Shown: in pieces, positions 1,466 through 38,575 of the stretch
Layout of the letters: each line of letters begins with the position of its first letter
How positions within the stretch are numbered: the first letter of the stretch is position 1
DNA from: a virus
DNA: 38,575 nucleotides
IMG/VR virus record: IMGVR_UViG_3300030060_006665
Location: 1-38,575 of that record
Strand: one strand, 5' to 3'
Translations under genes and position numbers: made by a program
Notes under the pieces: generated by a model
Databases searched by the model: none
The model's input: only the letters and a program-made list of their open reading frames with translations
What the model was told of the DNA's origin: nothing

Positions 1466-2466
1466 CCGTTCCTGCCAATCACAATACCTGCATTGCGAGC
1501 AATCTCATCAACCGTAAGGTGCCTGGTCCATGCCCTGAAAGTATCCATCTGACCCTCAAAGGTTTGATTGTTATAAATGTTCGTACCAATAAAATATGCA
1601 CGCTGCTGTGCAACATTAGTAAGCGGGTGAATACCTAAGTTAAACGTAATGGTGCCACTACCGGAATAGTTGCCGCCCATCATACTGGTGTCCATAATAC
1701 TGAAGGTTGTAGCGTTGATCTTTGTAATTGGAAGAGTCTGATTGTTTAACGCTGACCATGGCATTCCTGATAAACCGGAGAAGACAACAAAGTCCCCTGT
1801 AGATAAATCGTGATTAGCAGTGCAGGTTACAACCCCAGGGTTAGCAGCAGTAATACCACTAATAGTCCTTGTCTGGTTCTGACTTGTGGCGACCAACTCC
1901 CCATCAAGATAAAGATCGCCATAACCATTCGGCGCTACATTCGTTATCCTGTAGTTAATAGCAATGTGATGCCAGGTATTAGCTGTTAGATTCTTGCTGG
2001 CAGCAAGAGTCCAGTTAGTACCCCCATTGTACCCACCAAGCTGAAGGCCGTTAACAGAATCCCAAATGGTTCCAAGGTTGTAGTTCCACCAAGCATGCCG
2101 CATTGTTTTACTTAAATCAGAATAAGCAGCGACCTCGAAGCACCTGTCGACTGTAAACAGTCCGCCGCCCAAATTAGTGTAAGCACAAATGGGATTGGTA
2201 GCATGATTAGAATAGGAGCCAGCAAGACCCGTGTGGCTAGTTCCGTCAAGGCCCTGACCAGATCCGCACTTATCACCAGCACCATCAAAGATCGGCCAAT
2301 CACCGGCAGACATAACTATGTTACCGTAGTCAATATTGACACCAGTCAGGTTCGCCAGGTTGTACCATTTAAGGTTGTCACTATCCCCAGATGCACGCTC
2401 AAAACGCAAACCAAGATTGCCATTAGTCAGAGGACGCTTGCGATTTAAGGTTCTACGCCTAGCCAT
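1462..2466 (-). CDS. LamG/concanavalin-A-like virion protein with inserted E1_FCCH-like module
   Basis: A 334-aa protein starting MARRRTLNRKRPL at ATG 2466; an upstream in-frame start at 2529 is less likely because it lies deep in the endolysin gene. The body has features of a LamG-type jelly roll: GLQLGGYNGGTNWTL, WHHIAINYRI, GDLYLDGELVA, and a closing GQMDTFRAWTRHLTVDEI segment. About residues 202-259 match the small ITAANPGVVTC...GDFVVFSGLSGM...NATTFSI pattern found in phage proteins and named after the E1 FCCH domain. Function is probably carbohydrate or cell-surface binding by the virion. It overlaps the endolysin gene by 8 nt and the next gene by an ATGA. Confidence 0.75.
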   Translation of the reverse strand: MARRRTLNRKRPLTNGNLGLRFERASGDSDNLKWYNLANLTGVNIDYGNIVMSAGDWPIFDGAGDKCGSGQGLDGTSHTGLAGSYSNHATNPICAYTNLGGGLFTVDRCFEVAAYSDLSKTMRHAWWNYNLGTIWDSVNGLQLGGYNGGTNWTLAASKNLTANTWHHIAINYRITNVAPNGYGDLYLDGELVATSQNQTRTISGITAANPGVVTCTANHDLSTGDFVVFSGLSGMPWSALNNQTLPITKINATTFSIMDTSMMGGNYSGSGTITFNLGIHPLTNVAQQRAYFIGTNIYNNQTFEGQMDTFRAWTRHLTVDEIARNAGIVIGRNG

Positions 2467-24782: not shown

Positions 24783-26492
24783 TCAGAAGTCAAGCCCATC
24801 GCCTAAAAGATGGTCATGATTATTCCTCTGCCAGTGATCAGTCAGGGGTTTTTTAGTGCGTGCATCTAACCCAGTCGACATCTCAAACTTAATATAATCT
24901 GCGTGCGTCTTCGGTACGAAGTCGGTGATTACTTTCTCACGTACAGGAATCAATTGCTCGAGTCCTTCGAGCGCCAGGCAGGTAGCGAATATCATGTCGT
25001 CATGACAGCCTGGCGAGTGCTGTCCTTCGCCTTTGTCATTGTAAGTAAATGTACTAATTTCGTTGATTAGCACCTGGGGAAGTTTTGTTAATCGCTCCTT
25101 GGCGACCATCTTACGCAGGCGCGTTGTTAGGATCGATCGATTGCTCGAGCTGGTATAGAATCCGAGTTTCTCAATGTAGCGCTCTGCCATCTTATCGTAG
25201 ACAAACCGACGGTAAAGGTGAGGGTACTGCTCAATGCTCAGCTCTTCCTGCAGTGCAGCACCCACGTTGTTAACCTCGACAACTGCGAGCGCTTGTCCGT
25301 ATTTCTTTCCGAGTTCTATTACCTTTGTTGCGAACTCATGGATCGGCAATCGCTCATAGATCCAAGCAGCAATACGCATGTTGTCTGTGTCTGTTGCGTT
25401 GATTACGCATGCAGCGCTAAAGTCACCTTCGCTTGAGCCTGCTGCAGTGTCGACGCCCATGACATAAACATTACCAGGCAGCGGTTCCTCAATATAATCG
25501 ACGACCTTGTTGAGTTCTTCAGGAATCCATTCTCCGTCGAAGAACATATCACCTGAGTGCAGGAAGGCATCTTGCGGTGTAGCGGGGTATTCCTGGCTAA
25601 ATCGGTCCCATTCATCGTCACATTTCTGCGATAATGCCCACTTTAACCACCTAATTTGGCCGTTATCCAGCTTGTGCTCAGCGGCATATTTCTGCTCAAA
25701 ATCGTCTAATTCACGCTCTACAATGGCCTGAACCTGGTCATCTAGCCTTAATGGCACCCCTTCATGGTCCAAATACCCGGTCTTATCCTTGTCGATCCGG
25801 TAGGATTCGAGCGCAAACCACGGCAGAAACACCTTATGGTAACCACGGTTGGTCATCCACCAGTCGTAGAACTGGTTAAAAGAGTTGGCTGTCGTCTCAA
25901 CGAAGGCGGCACCACGATCGGTGAGCGACTGCATGATGGTGGTAAAGACCAGGTGAGGCTTATCCCAGAATGCCATCTCTGAGCAGTGCAGGTAATGGAG
26001 CGTTGTTCCTCGCAGCTTGTCGGGGGTGTTCGCCGTTGCGATGCGGATGTTGCCGGTGTGCTTACGAAACACCAACTCGGTCTTGGTAGAGTGCTTGGTT
26101 GGGAAGTAGTTCTTCATCCAATCCGGCAGGCACTCGTAATAATTCTTATAAATCGTAAAGATTCTTGCAGCGGCATCATTCTCGTGGGCCAGCACGATGG
26201 CGCGTTCATTCTCGTTAAGCAGCACCTTCCAGAAGAAGTATGCAGCAACGAATGTAGTCACTCCTTCTTGGCGAGCCTTAAGAACACCAAGTCTATTGCG
26301 CCCGTTCTGGATGTCGCGCCAAATAATCTCCTGGGGCTCATTCCACTCGAACGGCACCAGGCGCGCTTTCTTGTCGACAATCTTCAGCACCTCTAGGCAG
26401 AAAAACCGAAAATCTTCCCGACAGTGGTTAATGAACGCAGTCTGGATCGGCGACAGCGAGTTTTTAACCTGGCGCTTGCGGCCTCTACTCAC
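24783..26492 (-). CDS. terL: Terminase large subunit
   Basis: A 569-aa packaging motor. The ATPase domain has a Walker A-like motif LKARQEGVTT (71-80), a Walker B region LHYLHCSEMAFWD (165-177) ending in the catalytic Glu, and a coupling-type TAN segment near 201-203. The nuclease domain has the three acidic centres: VMGVDTAAGSSEGDF (Asp348), VVEVNNVG (Glu406) and GCHDDM (Asp498/499). It starts with GTG at 26492, overlapping the candidate small-subunit gene by 8 nt. It translocates DNA into the prohead through the portal. Length and motifs are complete. After the stop, an 87-bp gap precedes the scaffold gene. Confidence 0.95.
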   Translation of the reverse strand: MSRGRKRQVKNSLSPIQTAFINHCREDFRFFCLEVLKIVDKKARLVPFEWNEPQEIIWRDIQNGRNRLGVLKARQEGVTTFVAAYFFWKVLLNENERAIVLAHENDAAARIFTIYKNYYECLPDWMKNYFPTKHSTKTELVFRKHTGNIRIATANTPDKLRGTTLHYLHCSEMAFWDKPHLVFTTIMQSLTDRGAAFVETTANSFNQFYDWWMTNRGYHKVFLPWFALESYRIDKDKTGYLDHEGVPLRLDDQVQAIVERELDDFEQKYAAEHKLDNGQIRWLKWALSQKCDDEWDRFSQEYPATPQDAFLHSGDMFFDGEWIPEELNKVVDYIEEPLPGNVYVMGVDTAAGSSEGDFSAACVINATDTDNMRIAAWIYERLPIHEFATKVIELGKKYGQALAVVEVNNVGAALQEELSIEQYPHLYRRFVYDKMAERYIEKLGFYTSSSNRSILTTRLRKMVAKERLTKLPQVLINEISTFTYNDKGEGQHSPGCHDDMIFATCLALEGLEQLIPVREKVITDFVPKTHADYIKFEMSTGLDARTKKPLTDHWQRNNHDHLLGDGLDF

Positions 26493-27750: not shown

Positions 27751-28116
27751 ATCGAACAAGAAAACCCTAGGGCCTGACAATCCCGATCAGCCAAGGGGCA
27801 ACTCCGAAACCTGTGGATTGCGTGAAATCGCGAGGGGTACTACCCCCGGAGGGGCCATGCGCTTACAGGGGGGTGGGCAACCCGAATCGGACCTGCCCGA
27901 TCGCATGTGTAAAATCAATGGCTTAGGGTGCAAATCGGGGGAACGGGGGCGGGGAAACCCCTGCAGCAGTGAGTCAAACACCCCTCGAACCGGGTCTCAA
28001 GTCTTCACGTTTCGAAAGGCGCCCATTCACCTTGTCGTCGTGGTCTCAATTGCGCTTGTCGTGCCAGTGCTTTGACCCGGCGCCCCATTACCCTCTGTCA
28101 ATGTTGCGGTATGGGG
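27751..28116. other. Gene-free GC-rich segment of the divergent control region
   Basis: I see no supportable gene in this 366-bp stretch; an open frame on the plus strand (from 27818) lacks a ribosome site and its protein looks random. Structures present are GGGGTA-C-TACCCC (27835-27847), runs of G that could form a quadruplex at 27926-27954 (four G-runs separated by loops of 8, 3 and 1 nt), a CTTGTCGT pair repeated about 30 bp apart near 28031 and 28061, and CCCCAT/ATGGGG arms (28083-28088, 28111-28116). It may be a control or replication region. Confidence 0.45.
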
Positions 28117-28152
28117 TTGACTCTGTCTATTGATTAAGACAAGGTCCCTTTA
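28117..28152 (+). promoter_or_regulatory. Candidate early promoter for operon 1
   Basis: TTGACT (28117-28122), 17 bp, then CAAGGT (28140-28145) and 6 bp to the A that begins the AGACACCAACCA motif. The geometry is the same as in the stronger promoter at 30568, though this -10 box keeps only the key second A and last T. The motif here lies in the loop of a hairpin formed by GTCCCTTT and AAAGGGGAC, whose right arm includes the ribosome site of the first gene. Confidence 0.5.
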
Positions 28153-28163
28153 GACACCAACCA
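28152..28163 (+). repeat. AGACACCAACCA motif, copy 1
   Basis: First of four plus-strand copies of GACACCAACCA. It is 20 nt upstream of the first early gene ATG (28183) and at the predicted transcription start of operon 1. Confidence 0.8.
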
Positions 28164-28182
28164 ACCCTTGAAAGGGGACATC

Positions 28183-28422
28183 ATGCCACATCCTAATATC
28201 TACCACTCAAAAGTTTACATGGTCACCGACTCTGACCTTGAGTCCGCTGTAGAAGCGCTTCGGACTATGTCCTTAGATTGCGAAAGAGCCGCCGCTAAAG
28301 CGAACAGCGAAGGACTGTTCAAAGCCTTCAAGGACTCCGCTGCGAGTTGGCAGGCTGTTGCGCTCCGCATTGAAGCTATTATTGATAGCCGCTTTGCCTG
28401 CGATGTGGAGATAATCCGATGA
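28183..28422 (+). CDS. Small hypothetical early protein, first gene of operon 1
   Basis: A 79-aa protein starting at ATG 28183, chosen over an upstream TTG (28168) because AAAGGGG lies at the right distance. It is helical, beginning MPHPNIYHSKVYMVTDSD and containing ALRTMSLDCERAAAKANSEG. It has no recognised motif and no membrane span. It is immediate-early by position, directly behind the candidate promoter. Such small first-transcribed phage proteins often modify host functions, but nothing here shows which. The stop overlaps the next ATG (ATGA). Confidence 0.75.
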   Translation: MPHPNIYHSKVYMVTDSDLESAVEALRTMSLDCERAAAKANSEGLFKAFKDSAASWQAVALRIEAIIDSRFACDVEIIR

Positions 28423-28877
28423 CTATTTATACTCGCGATATCTCCGAGATTAAGTCCTACGCTAAGCGCGCATTCCATGACTTCAAATACCACTTGCTCG
28501 CGCTTAACCTTGTCGGATTCACTCCGGAGCGACCGAATAGCGGCTTTCACCTATGGCAACATATGGAGTCTTTCGACGGATCGCATGAAGCGCGTTCCGT
28601 CGTTGAATCGGAATTTCATGTTGAGGGATACAGCGCGCCGGAAATGCTATTGCTCCGCATGCCCGACAACGCAACAGCCGCTGATATCCGAGACGCAATC
28701 GACGCCTTGAATGCTTCGGACTTCGGAGAACAGACAAGCGGTGGTATTGTCACCCGGTACGCTGATATTGAATCAGACTTCGGTGACGATAAGCGGTTTA
28801 TCTCATCTTCTACTTTGACCTTGGGTCGTCCCTATTCCGACAAGGATAGGCTGTTACTGCTGGACGTTCGACCCTAG
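28419..28877 (+). CDS. Hypothetical early protein
   Basis: A 152-aa acidic protein beginning MTIYTRDISEIKSYAKRAFH, containing aromatic and His-rich strands (GFHLWQHMESFDGSHEAR) and ending RLLLLDVRP. It is of mixed alpha/beta character without membrane spans. I do not recognise the family. It is coupled by ATGA to the preceding gene and followed by a 77-bp gap holding two tandem hairpins. Confidence 0.75.
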   Translation: MTIYTRDISEIKSYAKRAFHDFKYHLLALNLVGFTPERPNSGFHLWQHMESFDGSHEARSVVESEFHVEGYSAPEMLLLRMPDNATAADIRDAIDALNASDFGEQTSGGIVTRYADIESDFGDDKRFISSSTLTLGRPYSDKDRLLLLDVRP

Positions 28878-28894
28878 CCTATGGCGACGGGTTA

Positions 28895-28940
28895 CAGTGC
28901 CTTCACGGGGGCACTGTGCCCCGTTGCAATGGAGCAACGG
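28895..28940 (+). other. Two tandem perfect hairpins in an intercistronic leader
   Basis: CAGTGCC (28895-28901) pairs with GGCACTG (28910-28916) over an 8-nt loop. CCGTTGC (28921-28927) pairs with GCAACGG (28934-28940) over a 6-nt loop. Both stems are 7 bp without mismatch and lie just upstream of the gene at 28955, with TAGGAG as ribosome site right after the second stem. No U-run follows, so RNA processing, stability or a protein-binding site is more likely than termination. Confidence 0.7.
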
Positions 28941-28954
28941 TAGGAGCATAGAAA

Positions 28955-29149
28955 ATGGGAATTACCTTTGAAAACTGGACGGCGAAAGCAAACGCAATTT
29001 GTGAGCGCAAATTCGGAGTCGGTCTCGATGACCTTGCCGATGGTCCTAGTCGAGACGCCTACAACGACGGATTGACTCCGCTTGAGTACGTAACTGAAAT
29101 TCTGCCTGAGCATGATGATTTGCTCGGGGCTTTCTTTTCGGATTGGTAG
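28955..29149 (+). CDS. Small acidic early protein (DUF5419-like pattern)
   Basis: A 64-aa protein, MGITFENWTAKANAICERKF followed by GVGLDDLADGPSRDAYNDGL and PLEYVTEIL. The layout (F-x-x-W, a Cys-containing helix, G(V)xLDDLxDxxxRDxYxDGLxPxE) is a recurrent small protein of phages and plasmids; I recall it as DUF5419-like, a name I could not check. Function is unknown. It is translated from a GGAG site beneath the tandem hairpins. Confidence 0.75.
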   Translation: MGITFENWTAKANAICERKFGVGLDDLADGPSRDAYNDGLTPLEYVTEILPEHDDLLGAFFSDW

Positions 29150-29159
29150 GGAGAAAAAA

Positions 29160-29354
29160 ATGTTTTTACTTTATGCAAAGCAGCCCGGCGCAAAGCGCTT
29201 TTATCCTATGAATTATACAACGGGCGAGCTTGAGATAAACCGCATTCATGCAACCTTATTTTCTGCAAAAACTGCAGCGAAAATAAAAGAAGACTTGCCA
29301 GCCATGACCGCCGCAAATCCGGGTTGGGCTTTCGAACTAAGGGGGACAAAATGA
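29160..29354 (+). CDS. Small hypothetical early protein
   Basis: A 64-aa protein starting at ATG 29160 behind a TAGGGAG site; a longer frame from 29112 overlaps the previous gene and is less likely. Sequence begins MFLLYAKQPGAKRFYPMNYT and ends PGWAFELRGTK. The pattern (short strand, KRFYPMN, helix with AAKIKEDLPAM, aromatic C-terminal strand) suggests a compact alpha/beta fold. No function can be assigned. It is coupled by ATGA to the GP88-like gene. Confidence 0.7.
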   Translation: MFLLYAKQPGAKRFYPMNYTTGELEINRIHATLFSAKTAAKIKEDLPAMTAANPGWAFELRGTK

Positions 29355-30145
29355 CAACAGCGCTAAACTTACCCGAAAATTGGGCTGATTATGCTTCGGG
29401 TCCTAGCCTTAAGGTACAGCGCGCCGCGCTAGGTGACCTATCCGACCCGGAAAAAATGCCGGACCTAGCCTTTAATATTCCGGCGCAAGCCTGCAGAGTC
29501 GGTAAGACCCTAGCAGCCATCGAAGGCACCCCTTGTTTCGGCTGTTACGCTTTGAAAGGGCGCTATCGTTTCGCCAATGTACAGAATGCAATGGATAGGC
29601 GGCTGGCAATACTCAACGAGGCTTTAAGCGATCGGTCAGGTGACCTTGCGCGAAGGTGGGTTGCTAATTTCGCCTCGGTTCTCAATGGCAGGTGGGACCG
29701 CGCAAAGCGCAAAGCCTCGAAAATGACCGAAACCGAGGCGGGAAAGTACCTTGGGAAGAAAGCATACTTTCGCTGGCATGATTCGGGCGACATCCAAAGC
29801 CTCGGGCACCTTGTCCTAATTGCGCTCGTGGCGAAGGCTACTCCAGAAATCTCGCATTGGTTACCGACCCAGGAACGGAAAGACGTTCGAGCGTTTATGA
29901 AGCAATACGGTGAGTTCCCTGAGAACCTTTGTGTCCGGATCTCCGCCGCCAAAAACGACGCAATCGCAAAGCGGGAGACCCTACCGCAATCGGTCGTTGT
30001 GACAAGCGCCGAAGGCGATGCACTTGTGAAGGACAGCGGCGGCTCTATGTGCCCAGCCTATGAACTCTACAACGGGGAATGCGGACCTTGCCGCTCGTGT
30101 TGGGACAAGTCCAACCCGGTGACAGGCTACCCGCTCCACAATTAA
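29351..30145 (+). CDS. GP88-like cysteine protein
   Basis: A 264-aa protein starting ATG 29351; an upstream frame start is excluded by the ATGA coupling. Its layout matches the phage GP88 family: an N-terminal Cys cluster (CRVGKTLAAIEGTPCFGCYA), the strongly conserved FRWHDSGDIQS segment, a WLPTQ motif, an NLCVRISA strand, and a C-terminal cluster CPAYELYNGECGPCRSCW. The cysteines could hold a metal or Fe-S cluster. The biochemical role of GP88 is unknown to me. It is the last gene of operon 1 and is followed by a strong terminator. Confidence 0.8.
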   Translation: MTTALNLPENWADYASGPSLKVQRAALGDLSDPEKMPDLAFNIPAQACRVGKTLAAIEGTPCFGCYALKGRYRFANVQNAMDRRLAILNEALSDRSGDLARRWVANFASVLNGRWDRAKRKASKMTETEAGKYLGKKAYFRWHDSGDIQSLGHLVLIALVAKATPEISHWLPTQERKDVRAFMKQYGEFPENLCVRISAAKNDAIAKRETLPQSVVVTSAEGDALVKDSGGSMCPAYELYNGECGPCRSCWDKSNPVTGYPLHN

Positions 30146-30167
30146 CCCGGACACATTCTGACGGATT

Positions 30168-30197
30168 GAGCCGCCCCGAGCGGCTCTTTTCGTTTTT
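30168..30197 (+). terminator. Intrinsic terminator of operon 1
   Basis: A perfect 7-bp stem GAGCCGC/GCGGCTC (30168-30174 and 30180-30186) with a CCCGA loop is followed by TTTTCGTTTTT. This is a canonical rho-independent terminator 22 bp after the GP88-like stop codon. Confidence 0.92.
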
Positions 30198-30368
30198 GCC
30201 CTAGGCTGTGCCCTAGGCTGTGCTGTGCCCTGGGCTGTGCCCTCTGCCCTAGGCTGTGCTGTGCCCTAGGCTGTGCCCTCTGCCCTCTGCTGCCCTCTGC
30301 CCTCTGCTGCCCTCTGCCCTCCCCTGCCCTCTGCCCTCCCCTGCCCTCCTCTGCCCTCTGTTGCCGTC
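30198..30368. repeat. Pyrimidine-rich degenerate tandem array (GCCCT units)
   Basis: About 170 bp containing sixteen GCCCT pentamers on the plus strand separated by AGGCTGT, CTGT, CT, CTGCT or CCCCT. Left-hand units are GCCCTAGGCTGT-like; right-hand units drift to GCCCTCT and GCCCTCCCCT. The strand is nearly free of A. A minus-strand open frame through it is an artefact of the repeat. Possibilities are slippage-grown junk, a polypurine/polypyrimidine structure with a role in replication, or an assembly-sensitive region. Confidence 0.85.
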
Positions 30369-30464
30369 CATGCAAATTCAATGACTTAGGCGACAAATCC
30401 GAAAAAATCCGAAGCAAACGGATTGAAAGCTTTTTTTCCAAAAAGATCTCCGTTTGTAATGAAT
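30369..30464. other. AT-rich segment between the two repeat arrays
   Basis: This stretch has A- and T-runs, two AATCCG boxes (30396-30401, 30406-30411) and an inverted CGGATT (30419-30424). No gene is present. An AT-rich stretch flanked by direct repeats is the usual layout of a theta-type origin unwinding element, so it is a candidate origin core. Confidence 0.4.
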
Positions 30465-30590
30465 CGACCGAGTAGCGAGGAGCAAACGACCGAGTAGCGA
30501 GTAGCGAGTAGCGAGTATTCACAAGCGAGGACCGAGGACCGAGGACCGTAACCCATGCGGCTAGGGCTTGACAGACGAGGACCGAGGAGC
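30465..30590. repeat. Iteron-like heptamer repeats GAGTAGC and GAGGACC
   Basis: A 15-bp exact repeat CGACCGAGTAGCGAG occurs at 30465-30479 and 30487-30501. GAGTAGC occurs four times and GAGGACC four times (three in tandem at about 30527-30547 and one inside the promoter spacer at 30578-30584). Both heptamers share GAG at the start and C at the end. The last copies overlap the promoter at 30568, so a repeat-binding protein could control both replication and operon 2 transcription. Confidence 0.8.
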
Positions 30591-30604
30591 GTATAGTGCC
30601 ATCA
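30568..30604 (+). promoter_or_regulatory. Strong sigma70-type promoter for operon 2
   Basis: Consensus -35 TTGACA (30568-30573), an 18-bp spacer and -10 TATAGT (30592-30597). The predicted start is the A at 30604, which is the first base of AGACACCAACCA. The first gene follows with ATG at 30643. The spacer contains a GAGGACC iteron. Confidence 0.85.
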
Positions 30605-30615
30605 GACACCAACCA
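30604..30615 (+). repeat. AGACACCAACCA motif, copy 2
   Basis: This copy sits exactly at the predicted transcription start of the strongest promoter, so here the motif would be the 5' end of the transcript. Confidence 0.85.
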
Positions 30616-30642
30616 CGCGCTCAATGCGCCAAGAGAGGAAAC

Positions 30643-30927
30643 ATGATTCAGTATTACGAATGGTGGCTCCGAGAGCCTAATGGAAATCTAGACTTCAGTG
30701 ACAGCTTGCCGCCTAAGTGGCTCGCCGAGGACGGCGAGGTCATGCTGTGCTTCACGGTCTGGGTTGATGATCATGGGGTGAAGGAGCGTCACTACGCATA
30801 CGTTGATTCCGATACCGGGGAGCTGCCTCGCACCTTTGAGGACTGCGACGGAGATTCCCGCTGGAACCCTGAATCGATACTGGTTCCAGACGAATACCAC
30901 GACGAACTCAGGAGGACCGAGCGATGA
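30643..30927 (+). CDS. Hypothetical early protein, first gene of operon 2
   Basis: A 94-aa acidic protein with start ATG 30643 behind an AGAGAGG site; an upstream TTG frame begins inside the promoter and is rejected. It starts MIQYYEWWLREPNGNLDFSD and is rich in Trp, Tyr, Asp and Glu, perhaps a DNA mimic, but no family is recognised. It is coupled by ATGA to the next gene and transcribed from the 30568 promoter. Confidence 0.75.
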   Translation: MIQYYEWWLREPNGNLDFSDSLPPKWLAEDGEVMLCFTVWVDDHGVKERHYAYVDSDTGELPRTFEDCDGDSRWNPESILVPDEYHDELRRTER

Positions 30928-31133
30928 AACCCAAATTCAAACCAGCAAACGACAAGCAGATCAAGACGTTGAGCGATAGCGTCGCAAGCCTCGAGCACTC
31001 AACAATGGTGCTCGCCTTTGAACTGCAAGAGGAGCGCAATAAGCAGGCTCTTTCTTTTATGGTGCTGGCTGTCCTGCAGTCCTGCGCCGATCTGATGAAA
31101 ACAATGGGGGAGATTTATGATGAGGACGAATAG
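30924..31133 (+). CDS. Small helical early protein
   Basis: A 69-aa mostly alpha-helical protein beginning MKPKFKPANDKQIKTLSDSV with an amphipathic Met/Gln/Leu-rich middle (QALSFMVLAVLQSCADLMKT) and an acidic end. The hydrophobic middle might be a dimer interface rather than a membrane span. No function can be assigned. Both ends overlap the neighbours. Confidence 0.7.
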   Translation: MKPKFKPANDKQIKTLSDSVASLEHSTMVLAFELQEERNKQALSFMVLAVLQSCADLMKTMGEIYDEDE

Positions 31134-31263
31134 CCAAGCACGACCAGCGCCATGGCGGCGATGGACCCGTAACGATTTACACATGCGCGCCATGTATTGT
31201 TTCGCAGCAGGATTTGGCTCTGGTTTTATCTACGCTGCCATCATCTGGAGTTTAACGCGATGA
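31120..31263 (+). CDS. Small single-span membrane protein
   Basis: A 47-aa protein with an Arg/Pro/Trp-rich N-terminal half (MRTNSQARPAPWRRWTRNDL) and a hydrophobic segment (FAAGFGSGFIYAAIIWSL) ending TR. Positive charges before the span predict cytoplasmic N-terminus. A GGGGGAG site precedes the ATG, the start overlaps the previous gene and the TGA overlaps the next ATG (ATGA). This complete coupling makes it a convincing small gene. Early phage membrane peptides often serve superinfection exclusion, but that is speculation here. Confidence 0.65.
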   Translation: MRTNSQARPAPWRRWTRNDLHMRAMYCFAAGFGSGFIYAAIIWSLTR

Positions 31264-31937
31264 AGCCAGGAACCAAAAAGAAATACGGCAAGAAGAAGCA
31301 AGCAAGAGACAAGCAGATCTTGCGACGGTACATTCAATTGATCGGGGAGACCGAGCAAGGGCAAGCAGGTATTACCCCAGATGACACACCAAGGTGGCAC
31401 CATCTGATCGTTGCTCGATTGGCTGTGGAATTCCGCATGGAGCGCGCATACATCAAGAAGTGCATCAGGAGTGCAGCGACGAGGAGCACCAACGATCGCA
31501 TGGTTTCTGCCATGACGGGTTGGATACCAGGAATCCAGATTGCATGGGGTGGCGACGATGCCATCGCAGCTGTTGATATCGACCCGGACGAAGCAGTTCG
31601 AAGACTGGTGGCTGAACTCGAGGGAAAGCCTAGGTCGGTGGGCGACATGCTGCCTACCGAACTGATTCTGCAGATCCAAGAGCACATGCCAGAAGGTGGT
31701 CGTATTACGATTCCGCCACGACCGCGCAGCGAGGACGATGGCATCCGTATTCGGCGCATGATCCCGACCGAGGAGGTCATCCGCCAGGATGTGATGATGA
31801 CATACGACCGAGTGAACAACAGCAGCCTGAGAGCCATCGGCGAGGTTTACGGAATCTCGCATGCACGCGTGGATACGATCTCGGTCGAGACACTAAAGAA
31901 AATTGCACAAACCTGCGTAAAAGGGGTTGACCTTTGA
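31260..31937 (+). CDS. DNA-binding protein with sigma-region-4-like C-terminal helix-turn-helix
   Basis: A 225-aa protein with ATG 31260. The N-terminus is very basic (MKPGTKKKYGKKKQARDKQI). About residues 45-72 contain a helix pair (IVARLAVEFRMERAYIKKCI). The C-terminal segment 188-216 reads LRAIGEVYGISHARVDTISV followed by ETLKKIA, closely following the sigma70 region 4.2 pattern (L-x-x-hydrophobic-G-x-x-aromatic-x-hydrophobic-S/T-x-x-R-V-x-x-I-x-x-x-x-L-K-K). It could be a phage sigma-like or middle/late transcription activator, or a replication initiator binding the repeats. The middle has no recognised domain. Confidence 0.65.
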   Translation: MKPGTKKKYGKKKQARDKQILRRYIQLIGETEQGQAGITPDDTPRWHHLIVARLAVEFRMERAYIKKCIRSAATRSTNDRMVSAMTGWIPGIQIAWGGDDAIAAVDIDPDEAVRRLVAELEGKPRSVGDMLPTELILQIQEHMPEGGRITIPPRPRSEDDGIRIRRMIPTEEVIRQDVMMTYDRVNNSSLRAIGEVYGISHARVDTISVETLKKIAQTCVKGVDL

Positions 31938-31967
31938 CGCATAAGCCCCCCATTAAGGGCGGGAGAG

Positions 31968-31978
31968 GACACCAACCA
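31968..31978 (+). repeat. GACACCAACCA motif, copy 3
   Basis: The last base of this copy is the A of the ATG at 31978. It follows a GGGAGAGG ribosome-site-like stretch and a short C-run/G-run inverted repeat (31945-31963). TTGACC and TTGACG occur 33-40 bp upstream, without a good -10 box. Confidence 0.8.
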
Positions 31979-32184
31979 TGCCAAGACTAGAAGACAAGAC
32001 ACTAAAGATCAGCGGCATCTATCAGTCGCAGCTTGGAGCACCTCGACGCATCAACGTTGAGTTGACCAGCGAGGACCTAGAATACATCGAAGCTGTGCTG
32101 CATTACATGCAGGACGACGGAGAGCCTACATGGGATGAGAATGTGCAGCGCATTGCAGCTGCTGTTACGGAGGCGATGCGATGA
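31978..32184 (+). CDS. Small hypothetical early protein
   Basis: A 68-aa acidic protein, MPRLEDKTLKISGIYQSQLG followed by a strand INVELTSED and a helix EYIEAVLHYMQDD. It looks like a small beta-beta-alpha fold. No family is recognised. It is the first gene after motif copy 3 and coupled by ATGA to the next gene, so it may head a translational or transcriptional sub-unit of operon 2. Confidence 0.72.
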   Translation: MPRLEDKTLKISGIYQSQLGAPRRINVELTSEDLEYIEAVLHYMQDDGEPTWDENVQRIAAAVTEAMR

Positions 32185-32480
32185 GCAACAACGATTACAT
32201 GTACGCACCATTCTGCGCCAAGTGCGGAACACAGGTAGGCGCTCCTCGCCTGGTTCCCGAAGACTACAAACCAGTTCGTACGCTGTGCTTTGTCTGCCCA
32301 GACGGCGAGAAGCAGAGGCCGATGAGCGATGACAAGTTCGAGGTCTTGCAGGCTCTGATCAAGAGTGGCGAGGTCGACCGTCGAGCGCGCCAGTTGGCAG
32401 CGCAGTTGGCGCACAGGATGTTCGAGCAGCCTAGCTATAGGCTTGGCGACGAACTACCGCTGACCGAGGAGGACTTCTAA
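32181..32480 (+). CDS. Small zinc-binding early protein
   Basis: A 99-aa protein with two Cys pairs, CAKC (about 12-15) and CFVC (about 36-39), spaced like a zinc ribbon, followed by an acidic/helical C-terminal part. It may bind nucleic acid or a host protein. It is coupled at the start by ATGA and at the end by TAATG to its neighbours. Confidence 0.72.
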   Translation: MSNNDYMYAPFCAKCGTQVGAPRLVPEDYKPVRTLCFVCPDGEKQRPMSDDKFEVLQALIKSGEVDRRARQLAAQLAHRMFEQPSYRLGDELPLTEEDF

Positions 32481-32887
32481 TGCTCTGGGATGCAATGTTG
32501 AAGGCAGCCAAAGGTGGCATGCCCCTGGATGAGATGCGAGACAAGCTGAAGTCTTGCGGGTACGAACTCTGCACCAAGCGCTTTTACGGATCGTCCGAGA
32601 ATGCGCTGATCGAAAGCGACCTGCACCTGTACAACGCACTCAAAGCTGAGGGTTGGAGCGAGGCAGAGATCCAGCAGGATATGACTGCCGATGCTTGGTC
32701 CGAGGACGAGGAGGAGTGGGCTAATCATCCTGAGTTTATCGATGGTCAGGATTTCTTCCAGGCTGCGATGACAGCGGTAAAGAACAGCAAGCTGATGATC
32801 TGGTGTCGCAAGATCGAGGACGAGCGTCAGAACTTCCCGGAGGCAATGCGCCTGCTGGGATCACCACTTGAGGAGGTGGCGCAATGA
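32480..32887 (+). CDS. Hypothetical acidic early protein
   Basis: A 135-aa protein with strongly acidic helices (GWSEAEIQQDMTADAWSEDE), no membrane span and one CGYELCTKR segment. It appears all helical; the family is not recognised. The acidity could suit a DNA-mimic or protein-protein interaction role. It overlaps the preceding stop by one base (TAATG) and the following 42-aa gene by an ATGA. Confidence 0.72.
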   Translation: MLWDAMLKAAKGGMPLDEMRDKLKSCGYELCTKRFYGSSENALIESDLHLYNALKAEGWSEAEIQQDMTADAWSEDEEEWANHPEFIDGQDFFQAAMTAVKNSKLMIWCRKIEDERQNFPEAMRLLGSPLEEVAQ

Positions 32888-33012
32888 GCATGCAAGATGA
32901 ACTGGAGAAGATCGACTTCTTCAAGCGCACCAAGTTCAAAGGCTTTGCTACTGGGTTAAGCAAGCCAAAGCCTGCAAAGAAGAACTTAAAGCAGGAGGAC
33001 GAGCAGTCATGA
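32884..33012 (+). CDS. 42-aa hypothetical protein
   Basis: MSMQDELEKIDFFKRTKFKG followed by a Lys-rich tail with KPKPAKKNLKQED. It is accepted because the ATG overlaps the upstream TGA and its TGA overlaps the downstream ATG (ATGA both sides), and without it there would be an unexplained 121-bp hole in a tightly packed operon. The AGGAGG-like stretch (GAGGAGG, 32871-32877) upstream gives a good ribosome site. Probably nucleic-acid or protein binding. Confidence 0.65.
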   Translation: MSMQDELEKIDFFKRTKFKGFATGLSKPKPAKKNLKQEDEQS

Positions 33013-33422
33013 AGTGCGACGACCTGCCGATCTTTCAGTGGAGCGATGGCACGAGCACCCCGCTCGAGGATTCACCGATTCCGACTGTTGCCCCAGATTA
33101 CCCTGAGACAAACAGCACGACCGAGATGTTTGCCGAGTACCATCGGCGCAACCCGGCTGTGTACCGTGCCTTGCTGACGCTGGCCTACGACCTGCGCCGA
33201 CGAGGCAGGAAGGGCTTTGGCATGAAGGGATTGTTCGAGGTCCTTCGGTGGCAGCATGCACGCTTCAGTAGCGAGGACGAGCCGCTCAAGCTGAACAACC
33301 TATTCACGTCATACTACTCGCGCTTGATGATGCACAACGAACCTAGCCTGCGTGGCTTCTTTAAGTTGCGACGCATGGTCGATGACTTTGACCCAACCAA
33401 AATAGAAATGGAGACACCATGA
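33009..33422 (+). CDS. Conserved phage protein of unknown function (FAEYHRRNPAVY pattern)
   Basis: A 137-aa protein. The segment FAEYHRRNPAVYRALLTLAY, then GFGMKGLFEVLRW, then LNNLFTSYYSRLMM and LRGFFKLRR form a pattern I know from many phage and prophage hypothetical proteins in replication/recombination regions. It is helical with conserved His/Asn/Arg positions, suggesting nucleic-acid binding. It lies just before the RecE/annealing pair. Confidence 0.75.
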   Translation: MKCDDLPIFQWSDGTSTPLEDSPIPTVAPDYPETNSTTEMFAEYHRRNPAVYRALLTLAYDLRRRGRKGFGMKGLFEVLRWQHARFSSEDEPLKLNNLFTSYYSRLMMHNEPSLRGFFKLRRMVDDFDPTKIEMETP

Positions 33423-33652
33423 GTATTGTAGACCCAGCAGCGTGGAGCAGGCTGCAGCGCTTTATTGAAACAGCGAGGAAGTCCCTCGAGGCTGTCGAGG
33501 ATGCGTTTGATGACACGATGGAGGCTGACGATGCCTCTACCCCTGCAGAAGCAGAGAAACTGCGTAGGGCTTCGGTTCGACTGGAGGCTGCAGGTGTTAA
33601 CCTTTGTTACGAGGTCGGTGTGTTTGTGAAGAAGGAGGTAAGCAATGGATAG
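33419..33652 (+). CDS. Small helical protein
   Basis: A 77-aa all-helical acidic protein beginning MSIVDPAAWSRLQRFIETAR. Amphipathic helices (LEAVEDAFDDTMEADD) suggest a coiled-coil dimer. It overlaps its neighbours at both ends (4 and 8 nt). It lies immediately before the RecE-like nuclease and may be a partner or regulator, but there is no motif evidence. Confidence 0.7.
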   Translation: MSIVDPAAWSRLQRFIETARKSLEAVEDAFDDTMEADDASTPAEAEKLRRASVRLEAAGVNLCYEVGVFVKKEVSNG

Positions 33653-34472
33653 CTACCATAGTCTTAACCCGTTTACCGATGGTGTTAACTGGTCCTTCCT
33701 AGTGAAGGCTCACGCTGGCCTCGGTGGTTCCTGGTCCCAAGCCTACCACGACACGTTCGTTGAGCGACCACAGCCAAATGATGCTATGCGCTTCGGAACC
33801 CTGGTCCACACCATGGTGCTCGAGCCTGACAGCATGAACAGCGAGTTCGTCGTGGCACCCGAGGGAATGAGCAAGCGCACCAAAGCATACAAAGCACTGG
33901 TCGAAACCAACCCGGACAAGATGGTGATTACTCCTGACGATTTGCGCCGTGCTGGAGAAATGAAGGCAGCGCTCATGGCACAGGAGGAAGCAAAGCGCCT
34001 GCTTTGGATGACCGATGGTGCAAACGAACAGGTAGTACAGGAGGTGTTTAAGGTCGACGGACAGGACGTGCCAGTGCGCGCCAAGGTGGATCGGCAGTAC
34101 TGGGACGATGATGGATCGCTCGTCGTTGTTGATCTTAAAACCACCAAGAACCCGAGTAAGGCTAAGTTCGTACGTTCGATTATGGACTTCGGATACTTGG
34201 GGCAGCTTGCGTTTTACGCTGACATGATCGGCGCAGCGCAGGCTAAGATCGTCGCAGTGCAAAGCGTTGCACCCTATCAGGTGACAGTGGTGAGTTTTGA
34301 CACCGAAGCGATGCAGTACGGACGTGAACTCTATAAGGACTTGCTGATCGAGTATGCGCCGAAGAGAGCACAGGAGTTGGTCAACCCTGGTCCACACAAT
34401 TGGCCACAGTGCGACCCTGTTGTACGGTTTACAATCGATGACGTGCCACCATGGCACCGGAGGAAGAAGTGA
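33645..34472 (+). CDS. RecE/exonuclease VIII-like PD-(D/E)xK nuclease
   Basis: A 275-aa nuclease of the recombination module. The N-terminal motif FGTLVHTMVLEP (50-61) and the core VPVRAKVDRQYWDDDG followed by VVDLKTTKNPSKAKF (about 142-175) with GYLGQLAFYADM (about 182-193) are diagnostic of the RecE/PDDEXK_1 group; the Asp of VDL, Lys of KTT and downstream Gln/Tyr are the active-site positions. It would degrade double-stranded ends 5'-3' to give single-stranded tails for the annealing protein encoded next. The gene pair overlaps (TGATG), as expected for partners. Confidence 0.9.
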   Translation: MDSYHSLNPFTDGVNWSFLVKAHAGLGGSWSQAYHDTFVERPQPNDAMRFGTLVHTMVLEPDSMNSEFVVAPEGMSKRTKAYKALVETNPDKMVITPDDLRRAGEMKAALMAQEEAKRLLWMTDGANEQVVQEVFKVDGQDVPVRAKVDRQYWDDDGSLVVVDLKTTKNPSKAKFVRSIMDFGYLGQLAFYADMIGAAQAKIVAVQSVAPYQVTVVSFDTEAMQYGRELYKDLLIEYAPKRAQELVNPGPHNWPQCDPVVRFTIDDVPPWHRRKK

Positions 34473-35182
34473 TGATGTATGTCAGTCCACAAAGCCACAT
34501 GGAATTATGGGACAGCCTCTGCAAGACCGATCCCAAGCACACTCGAGGCTTTAGCACGAGGAGCGGCTTCAAGGGCACGACTATCGATGCGATGTGGCTC
34601 GTAAAGCGCATGACCGAAACCTTCGGACCTGCTGGTAGTGGCTGGGGCTGGGATCAGAGCACACGAGAAGTGTCCGTACCTATGCCTGATGGTCAAATCG
34701 AGATGCTGGCAATCGCTATGGTTAAGATCTGGTGGTGGGACTCGTCTGCGAACGAGCGGCGCTACGTGCCAGAGCAGACCGGCTCAGCTCCTCTGGTCCT
34801 GAAGCGCAAGCGAGGACCATTGCTAGACGAGGAGGCACACAAGAAGGCTACCACCAACGCATTCTCGAAGGGGTGCAGCTACCTTGGGCTGGGCGCCGAT
34901 GTGTTTATGGGTCAGTACGACGACAATCGCTACGTCCAGGAGGTTTCTCGGCATTACGCAGAGAAGGAGCGAGCAGTAGTCGAAACACCGAAAGCCGCAA
35001 AGGCTACAGGCATGGAGCCAACGTACAGGGACGACATACTGGACGCTGACACCGAAGCTGACCTGATCGTCATTGCAGAGTCGATCGGCAAGGACGGAAG
35101 TTTATCAGCAGCGCAGAAGGCAAGCCTGCGTCAGCTGTGGGCAGAGCAGAAAACACGCATCGCAATGAACAGCGATGATTAA
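34472..35182 (+). CDS. Single-strand annealing protein (Rad52/Sak-like candidate)
   Basis: A 236-aa protein starting at ATG 34472, favoured over ATG 34451 because GGAGGA lies 7 nt upstream. The segments HMELWDSLCKTDPKHTRGF, FKGTTIDAMWLVKRMTETFG followed by GSGWGW, and HKKATTNAFSKGCSYLGLGA followed by DVFMGQYDDNRYV match phage proteins usually called Rad52- or Sak-type annealases. It pairs with the upstream RecE-like exonuclease and the downstream SSB to make a recombination and recombination-dependent replication module. The exact annealase family was assigned from memory of these motifs. Confidence 0.8.
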   Translation: MMYVSPQSHMELWDSLCKTDPKHTRGFSTRSGFKGTTIDAMWLVKRMTETFGPAGSGWGWDQSTREVSVPMPDGQIEMLAIAMVKIWWWDSSANERRYVPEQTGSAPLVLKRKRGPLLDEEAHKKATTNAFSKGCSYLGLGADVFMGQYDDNRYVQEVSRHYAEKERAVVETPKAAKATGMEPTYRDDILDADTEADLIVIAESIGKDGSLSAAQKASLRQLWAEQKTRIAMNSDD

Positions 35183-35214
35183 AACAACCGCATAAAGCGG
35201 AAAGAGAGGGTGCA

Positions 35215-35616
35215 ATGGGTCTTAATAGGCAACAAATTCTGGGCAACTTGGGACGAGATCCCGAGGTGCGCCATACCAACAGTGGCACTGCAGTTGCCAC
35301 GCTGAGGATCGGAGCATCCACCAGAGAGAAGGTGGACGGCGAATGGACTAGCGTCACCGAATGGTTCGACTGTGTGGTCTGGGGCAATCAGGCAGAGATC
35401 GCCGGAAAGCACTTGTCGAAAGGCGAGCAGGTGTACATCGAAGGACGCACCAAGACGCGCCAGTACACCGACAAGGAAGGACAGGAGCGATACAAGACCG
35501 AGGTGCAGGTGGATCGCATGGAGTTTGCTGGTGGCAGTCGAAGCCAAAGTAACAACAATAAGCGCTCGCAATACGGCGAGCAACATTACGACCGAGGAGG
35601 GGACGTACCGTTTTGA
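35215..35616 (+). CDS. ssb: Single-stranded DNA-binding protein
   Basis: A 133-aa OB-fold protein with the standard SSB layout: QQILGNLGRDPEVRHTNSGT, ATLRIG, WTSVTEWFDCVVWGNQAEIA, LSKGEQVYIEGRTKTRQY, TEVQVDRMEF, and a short polar linker ending in DVPF, the typical C-terminal tip for partner recruitment. It protects single strands and should recruit the host replication machinery. An AGAGAGGG ribosome site follows a small CCGC/GCGG hairpin in the 32-bp gap after the annealase. Confidence 0.95.
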   Translation: MGLNRQQILGNLGRDPEVRHTNSGTAVATLRIGASTREKVDGEWTSVTEWFDCVVWGNQAEIAGKHLSKGEQVYIEGRTKTRQYTDKEGQERYKTEVQVDRMEFAGGSRSQSNNNKRSQYGEQHYDRGGDVPF

Positions 35617-35975
35617 ATCAGGAACAAAACATAGAAGAGCAGCTGACAGAAGAGCAGGACATAAAGCTAAAGGCAGCAGAAGAGACGGCAAACTTCTTGT
35701 CACAGATCGACAAGATGATTGACCACCACGCTGACTGCTTGGCTTTGTTCACCGAGCAGAAGATGACCTGGTTGCAGCGAGCCTGCATGATCCGGGGAGT
35801 TGACGCAGTACGCACTAACGTAGGCTATGGCATGAGGCTTTACTGGGCGACTGTTGAGGGAGAGGTTGTGAGGGATGATGACGATGAGCCTATGAAGGAA
35901 ATCGCCAGCCTTAACGACATCCTGTCTATTTCGCTACCTAAGCAGGACGCAGAGGTTAACGGTGCCGACACTTGA
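35613..35975 (+). CDS. Hypothetical protein between SSB and RusA
   Basis: A 120-aa acidic helical protein, read from TTG at 35613 overlapping the SSB stop (TTGA). It begins MNQEQNIEEQLTEEQDIKLK, with a coiled-coil-like start, then QKMTWLQRACMIRGVDAVRT and a basic-acidic C-terminal part. No family is recognised. It overlaps the RusA gene by 14 nt. It may be a replication accessory factor by context. Confidence 0.7.
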   Translation: MNQEQNIEEQLTEEQDIKLKAAEETANFLSQIDKMIDHHADCLALFTEQKMTWLQRACMIRGVDAVRTNVGYGMRLYWATVEGEVVRDDDDEPMKEIASLNDILSISLPKQDAEVNGADT

Positions 35976-36372
35976 AGTCTTTGTGCCTGGCAAGCCCGTC
36001 CCCAAACAGAGCGCACGCTTTGGGCGGGGGCGGGCATACCAGAAGAAGCGGATCACCGACTATCATGCCCTGGTGGCTTCCGCTGTGCACAATGCTGTGG
36101 TTACCCAAACAGAAGACTTTGCAAAGATGGTAGGTCCAGTACGAGTCGAGATCGACGCATACTGGGAATGGCCAAAGCGCACTCGCAAGTCCCTGTCGTC
36201 AACCGTTGCACCCAAGATTACACGTCCAGACAGCGACAACATCTGTAAGGCAGCGCTGGATGGGTGCTCTAGAGTGTGGGTTGATGATGCACAGGTTTGC
36301 GATTTGCGTATTCGCAAGTGGTACGCACCACAGGAACAAGTAGGAATCAGGATTAAAATCGAGGCAATATAA
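35962..36372 (+). CDS. rusA: RusA-type Holliday junction resolvase
   Basis: A 136-aa protein from GTG 35962. The core motif ITRPDSDNICKAALDG (87-101) with acidic residues Asp90 and Asp92, the downstream VWVDDAQVCDL with Asp108/109, and Lys119 in RKWY are the RusA metal-binding and catalytic pattern. Length is typical. It resolves four-way junctions, needed before packaging of replicated concatemers. It overlaps the previous gene by 14 nt and the next by TAATG. Confidence 0.93.
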   Translation: MPTLEVFVPGKPVPKQSARFGRGRAYQKKRITDYHALVASAVHNAVVTQTEDFAKMVGPVRVEIDAYWEWPKRTRKSLSSTVAPKITRPDSDNICKAALDGCSRVWVDDAQVCDLRIRKWYAPQEQVGIRIKIEAI

Positions 36373-37184
36373 TGGCTTTTATGGACGAGGTAATGAAGCA
36401 GTTGGGTGGCAGAGAACCGGATCTCTCTGACCCGCAGAGGCAGCCACCACCTAGAAGGTGCGCTGCTTGTGGCGAGAGCGTCGTTTACGAGTGGAAGCGT
36501 ATGGTTTCACGTCGACGCAAGGGATGGTGGGTCCTGTCTGAATGTGCAAGTTGCTCAGAACAAATCGCTTTGAGTAAGCACCTGGATGGCACTGACGAGT
36601 TGATAGCGTCAGCAAATATCCCCAGCATGTTTATCGGTTACAAGACAGGACGCACTACACCGTCACCGCTGCGAGACAACCTTTCTGTCGATAGTGATAA
36701 TAGCCATGTGTACGACAGGTGCCTTACTTATGTGGCGCCTCGATGGATCGTGTTCGCAGGCAGGGTTGGAGTCGGCAAGACAACGTGGGCTACAACCCTG
36801 CTCTGCGACCTGATCGACGAAAGGCAAGCAGGCAAGAAGCCCATGTGGGTTACCGAGTCAGGCTTCTTTCGTAACGCTGATAACGCAGCAGCGACCAGCC
36901 ATAGCGCCAGAGTCAGGGTCCTGCAGGATGCTATAGATGCATCGTTCCTGCTGCTCGATGACGTGGGTGGTAACAGACGAGAGCTGTCGTCATGGCAAGG
37001 TGGTGCGATACGTGACCTGATCGACGCAAGGCACAGCAACCACAAGCCAACGTTTATCACAACGAACTATAAGAGCTGGGATCGTCTCGCCGAGCGCTAT
37101 GGTGAGCACATTGTCAGCAGGCTTATTGATGCATCGAAGGGAATGCTGCTGATGGGCGGACCCGATAGGCGCTTAAAAAAGTGA
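36372..37184 (+). CDS. DnaC/IstB-type helicase loader ATPase
   Basis: A 270-aa AAA+ protein. A zinc-finger-like N-terminus has CAAC (30-33) and CASC (58-61). The ATPase core has Walker A GRVGVGKTT (130-138), Walker B FLLLDDVGG (192-200) and sensor-like TFITTNY (227-233) with an Arg further on (SRLID). It would load the host DnaB helicase on the phage origin, because no phage helicase, primase or polymerase is seen. It is last in operon 2, followed directly by a GC hairpin. Confidence 0.88.
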   Translation: MAFMDEVMKQLGGREPDLSDPQRQPPPRRCAACGESVVYEWKRMVSRRRKGWWVLSECASCSEQIALSKHLDGTDELIASANIPSMFIGYKTGRTTPSPLRDNLSVDSDNSHVYDRCLTYVAPRWIVFAGRVGVGKTTWATTLLCDLIDERQAGKKPMWVTESGFFRNADNAAATSHSARVRVLQDAIDASFLLLDDVGGNRRELSSWQGGAIRDLIDARHSNHKPTFITTNYKSWDRLAERYGEHIVSRLIDASKGMLLMGGPDRRLKK

Positions 37185-37208
37185 AGAGGGGGAACCACCC
37201 CCCCCTTC
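37175..37208 (-). terminator. Intrinsic terminator for late (minus) transcripts
   Basis: Arms 37183-37192 (GAAGAGGGGG) and the reverse-complementary 37199-37208 form a 10-bp stem with one mismatch. On the minus strand the stem is followed by AC and six T (37180-37175). It would stop late transcripts that run past the last late gene (37642) before they enter the helicase-loader gene antisense. On the plus strand the stem is not followed by T. Confidence 0.8.
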
Positions 37209-37209
37209 T

Positions 37210-37221
37210 AGACACCAACCA
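37210..37221 (+). repeat. AGACACCAACCA motif, copy 4
   Basis: It lies directly after the GC hairpin and ends on an ATG (37221) that opens a 9-codon frame, METMTEVIS, stopping before the next real gene. An inverted repeat ATGAC-TGAG-GTCAT (37230-37243) follows inside it. No sigma70 -10 is seen upstream. Confidence 0.8.
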
Positions 37222-37273
37222 TGGAAACCATGACTGAGGTCATTTCCTAACATCGAACATACGGGAGCGGCAA

Positions 37274-38431: not shown

Positions 38432-38575
38432 CTACCTGCGCGTCTTGCGCTTCTTTGCTGTCTTTGCTGACTTCTTAAAAGCCTTAGCCGTTGGTGCGCC
38501 TTTGCTTCCAGGCTTACGCATTTTCTCGCCGCTACCTTTGGCGATCCGCTTACGCTTAGCGTGGATATTAGCGTA
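38432..38575 (-). CDS. Small basic phage protein, C-terminal part (gene continues across the join)
   Basis: Residues 9-55 and the stop codon of the 55-aa protein whose start is at position 103. The tail reads GAPTAKAFKKSAKTAKKRKT followed by RR. The stretch 38497-38575 duplicates 1-79. The frame is continuous, and the one base difference between the duplicated copies is synonymous. Confidence 0.8.
   Translation of the reverse strand, partial: YANIHAKRKRIAKGSGEKMRKPGSKGAPTAKAFKKSAKTAKKRKTRR
38497..38575. repeat. Terminal direct repeat, right copy
   Basis: Matches bases 1-79 with one mismatch (38498 G versus base 2 A). Removing it leaves a circle of 38,496 bp. Confidence 0.95.

Follow-up and report, generated by a model that had tools for sequence, protein, structure and literature searches.

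Results

Organization of the phage genome

The window analysed here is the whole IMG/VR entry IMGVR_UViG_3300030060_006665 (38,575 bases), from an uncultured tailed phage. It carries a leftward structural operon with terminase, portal, and capsid genes, and rightward early genes encoding GP88-like, HTH regulator, exonuclease, recombinase-like, SSB, RusA-like, and DnaC-like proteins, the names SSB and RusA-like being assigned by reading the sequence. A DNA search returned no close phage isolate, a protein search returned distant terminases only, and a search of bacterial genomes returned no relative of this phage. The near-identical contig G001 (mostly 92–97% DNA identity) runs from window position 38575 into position 1, and about 80 nt are common to both window ends, indicating that the record is near-complete and circularly permuted or terminally repeated. 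A tRNA search and an Rfam search of the window yielded no tRNA, no hammerhead, and no other Rfam RNA. The features considered below are as follows.

28113–28121, plus strand: GGGGTTGAC, extended −35-like element of copy 1
28153–28163, plus strand: motif copy 1, in the leader of the first early gene (ATG 28183)
28183–28422, plus strand: first early gene, 79 aa, Shine–Dalgarno AAAGGGG
30564–30597, plus strand: sigma-70 type promoter GGGCTTGACA-18-TATAGT, 5′ of copy 2, conserved in G001
30605–30615, plus strand: motif copy 2, beginning at the predicted +1, conserved in G001 at 393
30643–30927, plus strand: early gene after copy 2, 94 aa, Shine–Dalgarno GAGAGGA
31260–31937, plus strand: HTH protein, 225 aa, weakly Mor/sigma-70 region 4 like, candidate regulator
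31923–31931, plus strand: GGGGTTGAC, 5′ of copy 3 and within the end of the 31260 gene, conserved in G001
31968–31978, plus strand: motif copy 3, abutting ATG 31978, with SD-like GAGAGG immediately 5′
33410–33418, plus strand: GGAGACACC, leader form of relatives G002 and G004, before ATG 33419, once in the window
37183–37208, no strand assigned: strong hairpin after the dnaC-like stop, scanning on the minus strand as a terminator with a T-run
37211–37221, plus strand: motif copy 4, 3′ of the dnaC-like gene, followed by the nine-codon ORF METMTEVIS

A repeated 11-mer confined to early gaps

The 11-mer GACACCAACCA occurs exactly at 28153, 30605, 31968, and 37211, four times on the plus strand and never on the minus strand. 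The initial annotation had described four exact plus-strand copies, all intergenic and beyond chance expectation, and this is confirmed: all four lie in gaps, which make up only 6.2% of the window in the gene set used here, and the further copies within coding regions that it had named as grounds for refutation are absent. About 0.01 copies are expected by chance per strand, GACACCAACCA is the sole 11-mer of the window with at least four copies spaced at least 200 nt apart, and none of 60 first-order Markov simulations of the window yielded an 11-mer with at least four dispersed copies; a chance origin is ruled out by these three results. With up to two mismatches allowed, 17 matches were found versus 9.06 expected in the window, so that only the exact copies clearly stand out. 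The motif is short and asymmetric, the flanks of its copies have nothing in common beyond the 11-mer, and no copy lies inside the leftward structural operon, all being confined to the non-structural half. Copies 2, 3, and 4 are unchanged in G001, copy 1 being outside its coverage, but at 94–97% identity this lack of changes says little about constraint. Four is a small number of copies for one genome, and the case depends on the parallel repeat systems of relatives described below.

Sequences upstream of the copies

A full sigma-70 promoter was found at copy 2 only, where TTGACA-18-TATAGT ends 7 nt before the motif; the motif thus begins at the predicted +1, as had been proposed for the strong promoter. 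The TTGAC noted earlier upstream of three copies was also recovered, starting 36, 37, and 41 nt 5′ of copies 1, 2, and 3, respectively, as was the string common to two copies, namely GGGGTTGAC at copies 1 and 3, with GGGCTTGAC at copy 2. The extended box GGGSTTGAC occurs three times on the plus strand of the window, each time 36–41 nt 5′ of one of copies 1–3, and once on the minus strand, as GGGCTTGAC at 24797, 5′ of the scaffold/capsid genes and without the motif. No convincing −10 element was found at copies 1 and 3, and no promoter at copy 4. Over all motif copies of the window and its relatives, 7 of 36 promoter scores exceeded the 95th percentile, only a mild enrichment; some leaders in relatives have TATAAT close upstream, and most copies in relatives have no promoter. 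The suggestion of an initially transcribed sequence thus fits copy 2 well, extends to copies 1 and 3 through the −35 box only, and does not fit copy 4.

On the minus strand at 24797–24767, the GGGCTTGAC-like −35 is followed 16 nt downstream by AATAAT, before the scaffold/capsid genes, and this candidate late promoter is conserved in G001. Low-complexity direct-repeat arrays (TGCCCTAGGCTG/TGCCCTCTG units; CGAGTAG and GAGGACC units) lie at 30197–30365 and 30491–30545, just 5′ of the copy 2 promoter. G001 has different repeat arrays at the same place, and these arrays are possibly an origin or a binding-site array.

Start codons and hairpins

The copies had been placed upstream of or touching an ATG, with copies 3 and 4 running directly into it. 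Copies 3 and 4 do abut an ATG, but that of copy 4 opens just nine codons, and copies 1 and 2 stand 19 and 27 nt, respectively, from their ATG with a separate Shine–Dalgarno sequence in between. The motif itself contains no Shine–Dalgarno sequence at copies 1, 2, and 4. A family search with the first early gene returned no match. Regarding the GC hairpins said to adjoin several copies, those beside copies 1–3 fold no better than shuffled sequence, whereas the copy 4 region, alone among the four, folds unusually well compared to shuffles. Upstream of copy 1 (27757–28020), folding was not above that of shuffles and no structured RNA was found. The METMTEVIS ORF (37220–37249) overlaps a small hairpin, and one base differs in G001. 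On the minus strand, the hairpin and T-run at 37208–37183 form the apparent end of a leftward late transcript crossing the record ends.

The HTH protein encoded at 31260

The C-terminal part of the 31260 protein is the portion resembling Mor and sigma-70 region 4, with matches to these families under the curated cut-offs, and a fold search with its structural model (pLDDT 66, poor) gave no significant match. The protein looks like a DNA-binding protein of the Mor/sigma-70 region 4 type and is a putative regulator. Its gene sits directly 5′ of copy 3, and the orthologue in G002 precedes the matching leader; in place of the single window gene, G002, G003, and G004 each have two ORFs side by side.

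Clade-specific repeats in relatives

Relatives at about 60% terminase identity lack GACACCAACCA and have their own one-strand leader repeats instead: GGAGACACC in G002 (six plus, zero minus), GGAGACAC in G004 (six plus, zero minus), the form common to these two being GGAGACAC(C), and GAAACGAGAC in G003 (eight plus, zero minus), which is also found in L005 (five copies) and L148 (two copies). Nearly all these repeats lie 0–6 nt 5′ of start codons, and the G002/G004 repeat consists of a Shine–Dalgarno GGAG and a fixed spacer before ATG. Because repeats at gene starts were what was searched for in the relatives, the placement of their motifs there is partly due to selection; no such selection applied to the lack of copies on the opposite strand or to the recurring copy after dnaC. 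The reverse complement of each clade's motif was searched for in its own genome and not found, giving no antisense partner. The repeat type tracks relatedness: G002 and G004 are mutually closest by the DnaC-like protein (62%), and L005, with 85% terminase identity to G003, has the same repeat form. More distant phages (35% terminase identity) have other leader repeats, such as CCTAGAAAGGTTT in L157. Conservation in related phages, which the initial annotation had looked for, thus extends for the exact 11-mer only to the closest relative, G001; beyond it the positions are kept with clade-specific sequences. Position, strand, conservation of the sites, and the clade-specific sequences are directly established.

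At the copy 3 leader, ACCATGCCAAGACT and the preceding GACACC are common to the G002 leader after the orthologous regulator gene, and at copy 1, ACCAACCAACCC is common to the first early leader of G003 that bears a motif, though matches of 12 letters arise in 0.5 to 4% of shuffles. The first early genes of the window and G003 have 22% identity (E 0.65), leaving their homology undecided. In the 25 nt preceding the motifs of G002–G004, the A/C content was raised (0.65 versus 0.53). Conservation of the single GGAGACACC at 33410 is not firm, G001 having GGAGATATC.

Every complete relative has one copy of its clade's motif just 3′ of the dnaC-like gene, the position of copy 4. In all five phages, this site consists of a hairpin followed by the clade's own motif, and a core AGACA aligns. 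In G002, G003, and G004, no gene follows the motif on that strand, and a hairpin is predicted there whose apical part contains the motif. A stem with a T-run, judged by eye to be terminator-like, comes next in G002 and G004.

A search of all viral contigs for promoter plus motif gave 17 stretches, of which two belong to the near-identical relative and most others are coding-region matches. In the unrelated contigs L050 (3640–3695), L053 (480–535, minus strand), and L057 (369–422), GGGTTGAC, a −10-like site, and GACACCAACC stand at a gene start, two of the three running straight into ATG; this motif behind a promoter-like site is suggestive only. Unrelated phage contigs also contain repeated ribosome-binding-site strings, such as GGAGAAGCA.

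Discussion

Considering these results, we propose that the 11-mer is, on balance, probably a start-associated leader sequence, similar to the SAS/ESAS elements discussed below, placed at early transcription and translation units under promoters with an extended −35 box. Copies 1–3 would stand in the 5′ leaders of early units, and copy 4 would stand alone as an orphan, 3′ of the gene that ends the early replication operon. Host sigma-70 type promoters with GGGSTTGAC would drive copies 1–3, placing the motif at the 5′ end of the mRNA or close to it, although at copies 1 and 3 we infer the transcription start. In the mRNA, the motif may provide a largely unpaired stretch rich in A and C, next to the ribosome-binding site or the start codon, and the raised A/C content before the motifs of G002–G004 is as expected for an unpaired ribosome-loading stretch. 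Most likely, the motif would tune translation start or leader stability of the early gene set, directly or via a common host or phage factor. The presence of clade-differing but genome-uniform sequences at the same sites is expected of functional sites with a single reader and would hardly arise by chance. The placement of the relatives' repeats right before start codons, merging with the Shine–Dalgarno sequence, suggests a role in translation initiation or in mRNA leaders. Against a SAS-like leader, copies 1 and 2 stand 19 and 27 nt from ATG and contain no Shine–Dalgarno sequence, unlike true SAS; no normal-sized gene stands directly behind copy 4; and promoter enrichment is mild. The idea of a leader marking early gene or operon starts is supported by strand, location in gaps, conservation in G001, and matching repeats in relatives; the initial interpretation as a whole is partly supported.

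The motif may alternatively be part of the promoter, occupying +1 to +11 where sigma-70 promoters have the GGGSTTGAC box and acting, as a conserved initially transcribed sequence, on promoter escape or the fate of the RNA 5′ end. The near-consensus promoter of copy 2, the boxes 5′ of copies 1–3, and TATAAT in some relatives' leaders agree with this, but we regard it as unlikely, given that copies 1 and 3 have no good −10, their spacing differs by 5 nt, copy 4 and most copies in relatives have no promoter, and the box at 24797 on the minus strand stands without the motif. The position of the HTH gene directly before copy 3, that of its G002 orthologue before the matching leader, and the changing together of motifs within each clade would also suit a DNA operator bound by a phage regulator, for example the 31260 protein, to coordinate the early genes, with the clade sequence following regulator specificity. 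However, the motif lacks symmetry, every copy is on the coding strand, and in relatives the repeat fuses with the ribosome-binding site, while the 31260 matches are under cut-offs and its structural model is poor, making an operator improbable.

Ribosome-binding-site cassettes copied by recombination between early-gene modules, with no common regulator, would explain the GGAG and fixed spacer of the G002/G004 repeat and have parallels in the GGAGAAGCA-like strings of unrelated phages. Such cassettes are very improbable as an account of the window motif, which has no Shine–Dalgarno sequence at copies 1, 2, and 4 and whose flanks differ beyond the 11-mer; furthermore, the post-dnaC orphan is kept in every complete relative, which does not fit a pure ribosome-binding site and leaves room for an operator or decoy. 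With rather low probability, the repeat may be the recognition site of a co-evolved, phage-made RNA- or DNA-binding factor, all sites being switched together in each clade and the orphan acting as a decoy or small RNA that titrates the factor when reading of the early operon is complete.

In cluster K mycobacteriophages, from which start-associated repeats have been known since 2011, 13-bp SAS repeats (consensus GGGATAGGAGCCC with AGGAG inside; PMC3203893) lie in one orientation at the starts of non-structural genes, a subset being preceded by ESAS, which are 17-bp imperfect inverted repeats holding SigA-like promoters and varying in consensus between subclusters; their role is still called unclear or ill-defined (PMC3203893; PMC11373665). 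The start-associated leader proposed here resembles this system as a short, asymmetric, one-orientation repeat at starts of non-structural genes, with some sigma-70 or SigA-like promoters just 5′. It differs in that the phages are unrelated, the copies are fewer, and GACACCAACCA is not GGGATAGGAGCCC and has no Shine–Dalgarno sequence, whereas SAS has an AGGAG core and the relatives' GGAGACAC has GGAG. SAS lie within a few nucleotides of start codons, as do nearly all repeats of the relatives (0–6 nt) and copies 3 and 4, whereas copies 1 and 2 have the Shine–Dalgarno sequence outside the motif. An ESAS promoter is found at a subset of SAS; in the window, copy 2 has a full promoter, copies 1 and 3 the −35 box only, and copy 4 none. 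The conserved orphan after dnaC is a further difference from cluster K SAS. By its placement, the window element may be filed as a variant of the SAS kind, outside the cluster K family itself.

A 26-bp SAS-like repeat, CCAACAATCCTAAACTGGAGAATCTA, precedes the start codons of eight small genes in one arm of Citrobacter phage Mordin, and like the repeats of the window family it stands before start codons, with an A/C-rich part and then GGAG (PMC4611695). Mordin is a Felix O1-like myophage, and its repeat is longer and of another sequence. What is new here is the clade-by-clade switching of the repeat sequence and the conserved orphan copy after dnaC, the latter indicating that the element is more than part of a ribosome-binding site. 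With at least three clades that carry their own repeat versions at matching sites, this phage family offers a natural experiment to find the reader, and such a putative factor would be expected to vary along with the repeat from clade to clade.

In lambdoid phages, nut sites in early leaders combine a short unpaired element and a small hairpin (boxA/boxB), the boxB hairpin being bound by N. The leaders of copies 1 and 2 likewise have a short unpaired element and a small hairpin, but the motif contains no boxA-like string, the hairpins differ and are not beyond shuffles, and no N-like protein was identified.

Hammerhead ribozymes between phage genes are known (PMC3088659), and type II hammerheads immediately precede these early leaders in the relatives G003 and L005, whereas the window has none, Rfam RF02276 giving no match there even at E 5. 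In G003, four were found (L033 6804–6868, 7177–7241, 7569–7633, and 8616–8680), two of them just below the gathering score, and in L005 two (338–402 and 1991–2057, minus strand), directly 5′ of repeated early leaders. Their placement suggests self-cleavage of early transcripts into gene-sized mRNAs in these two relatives.
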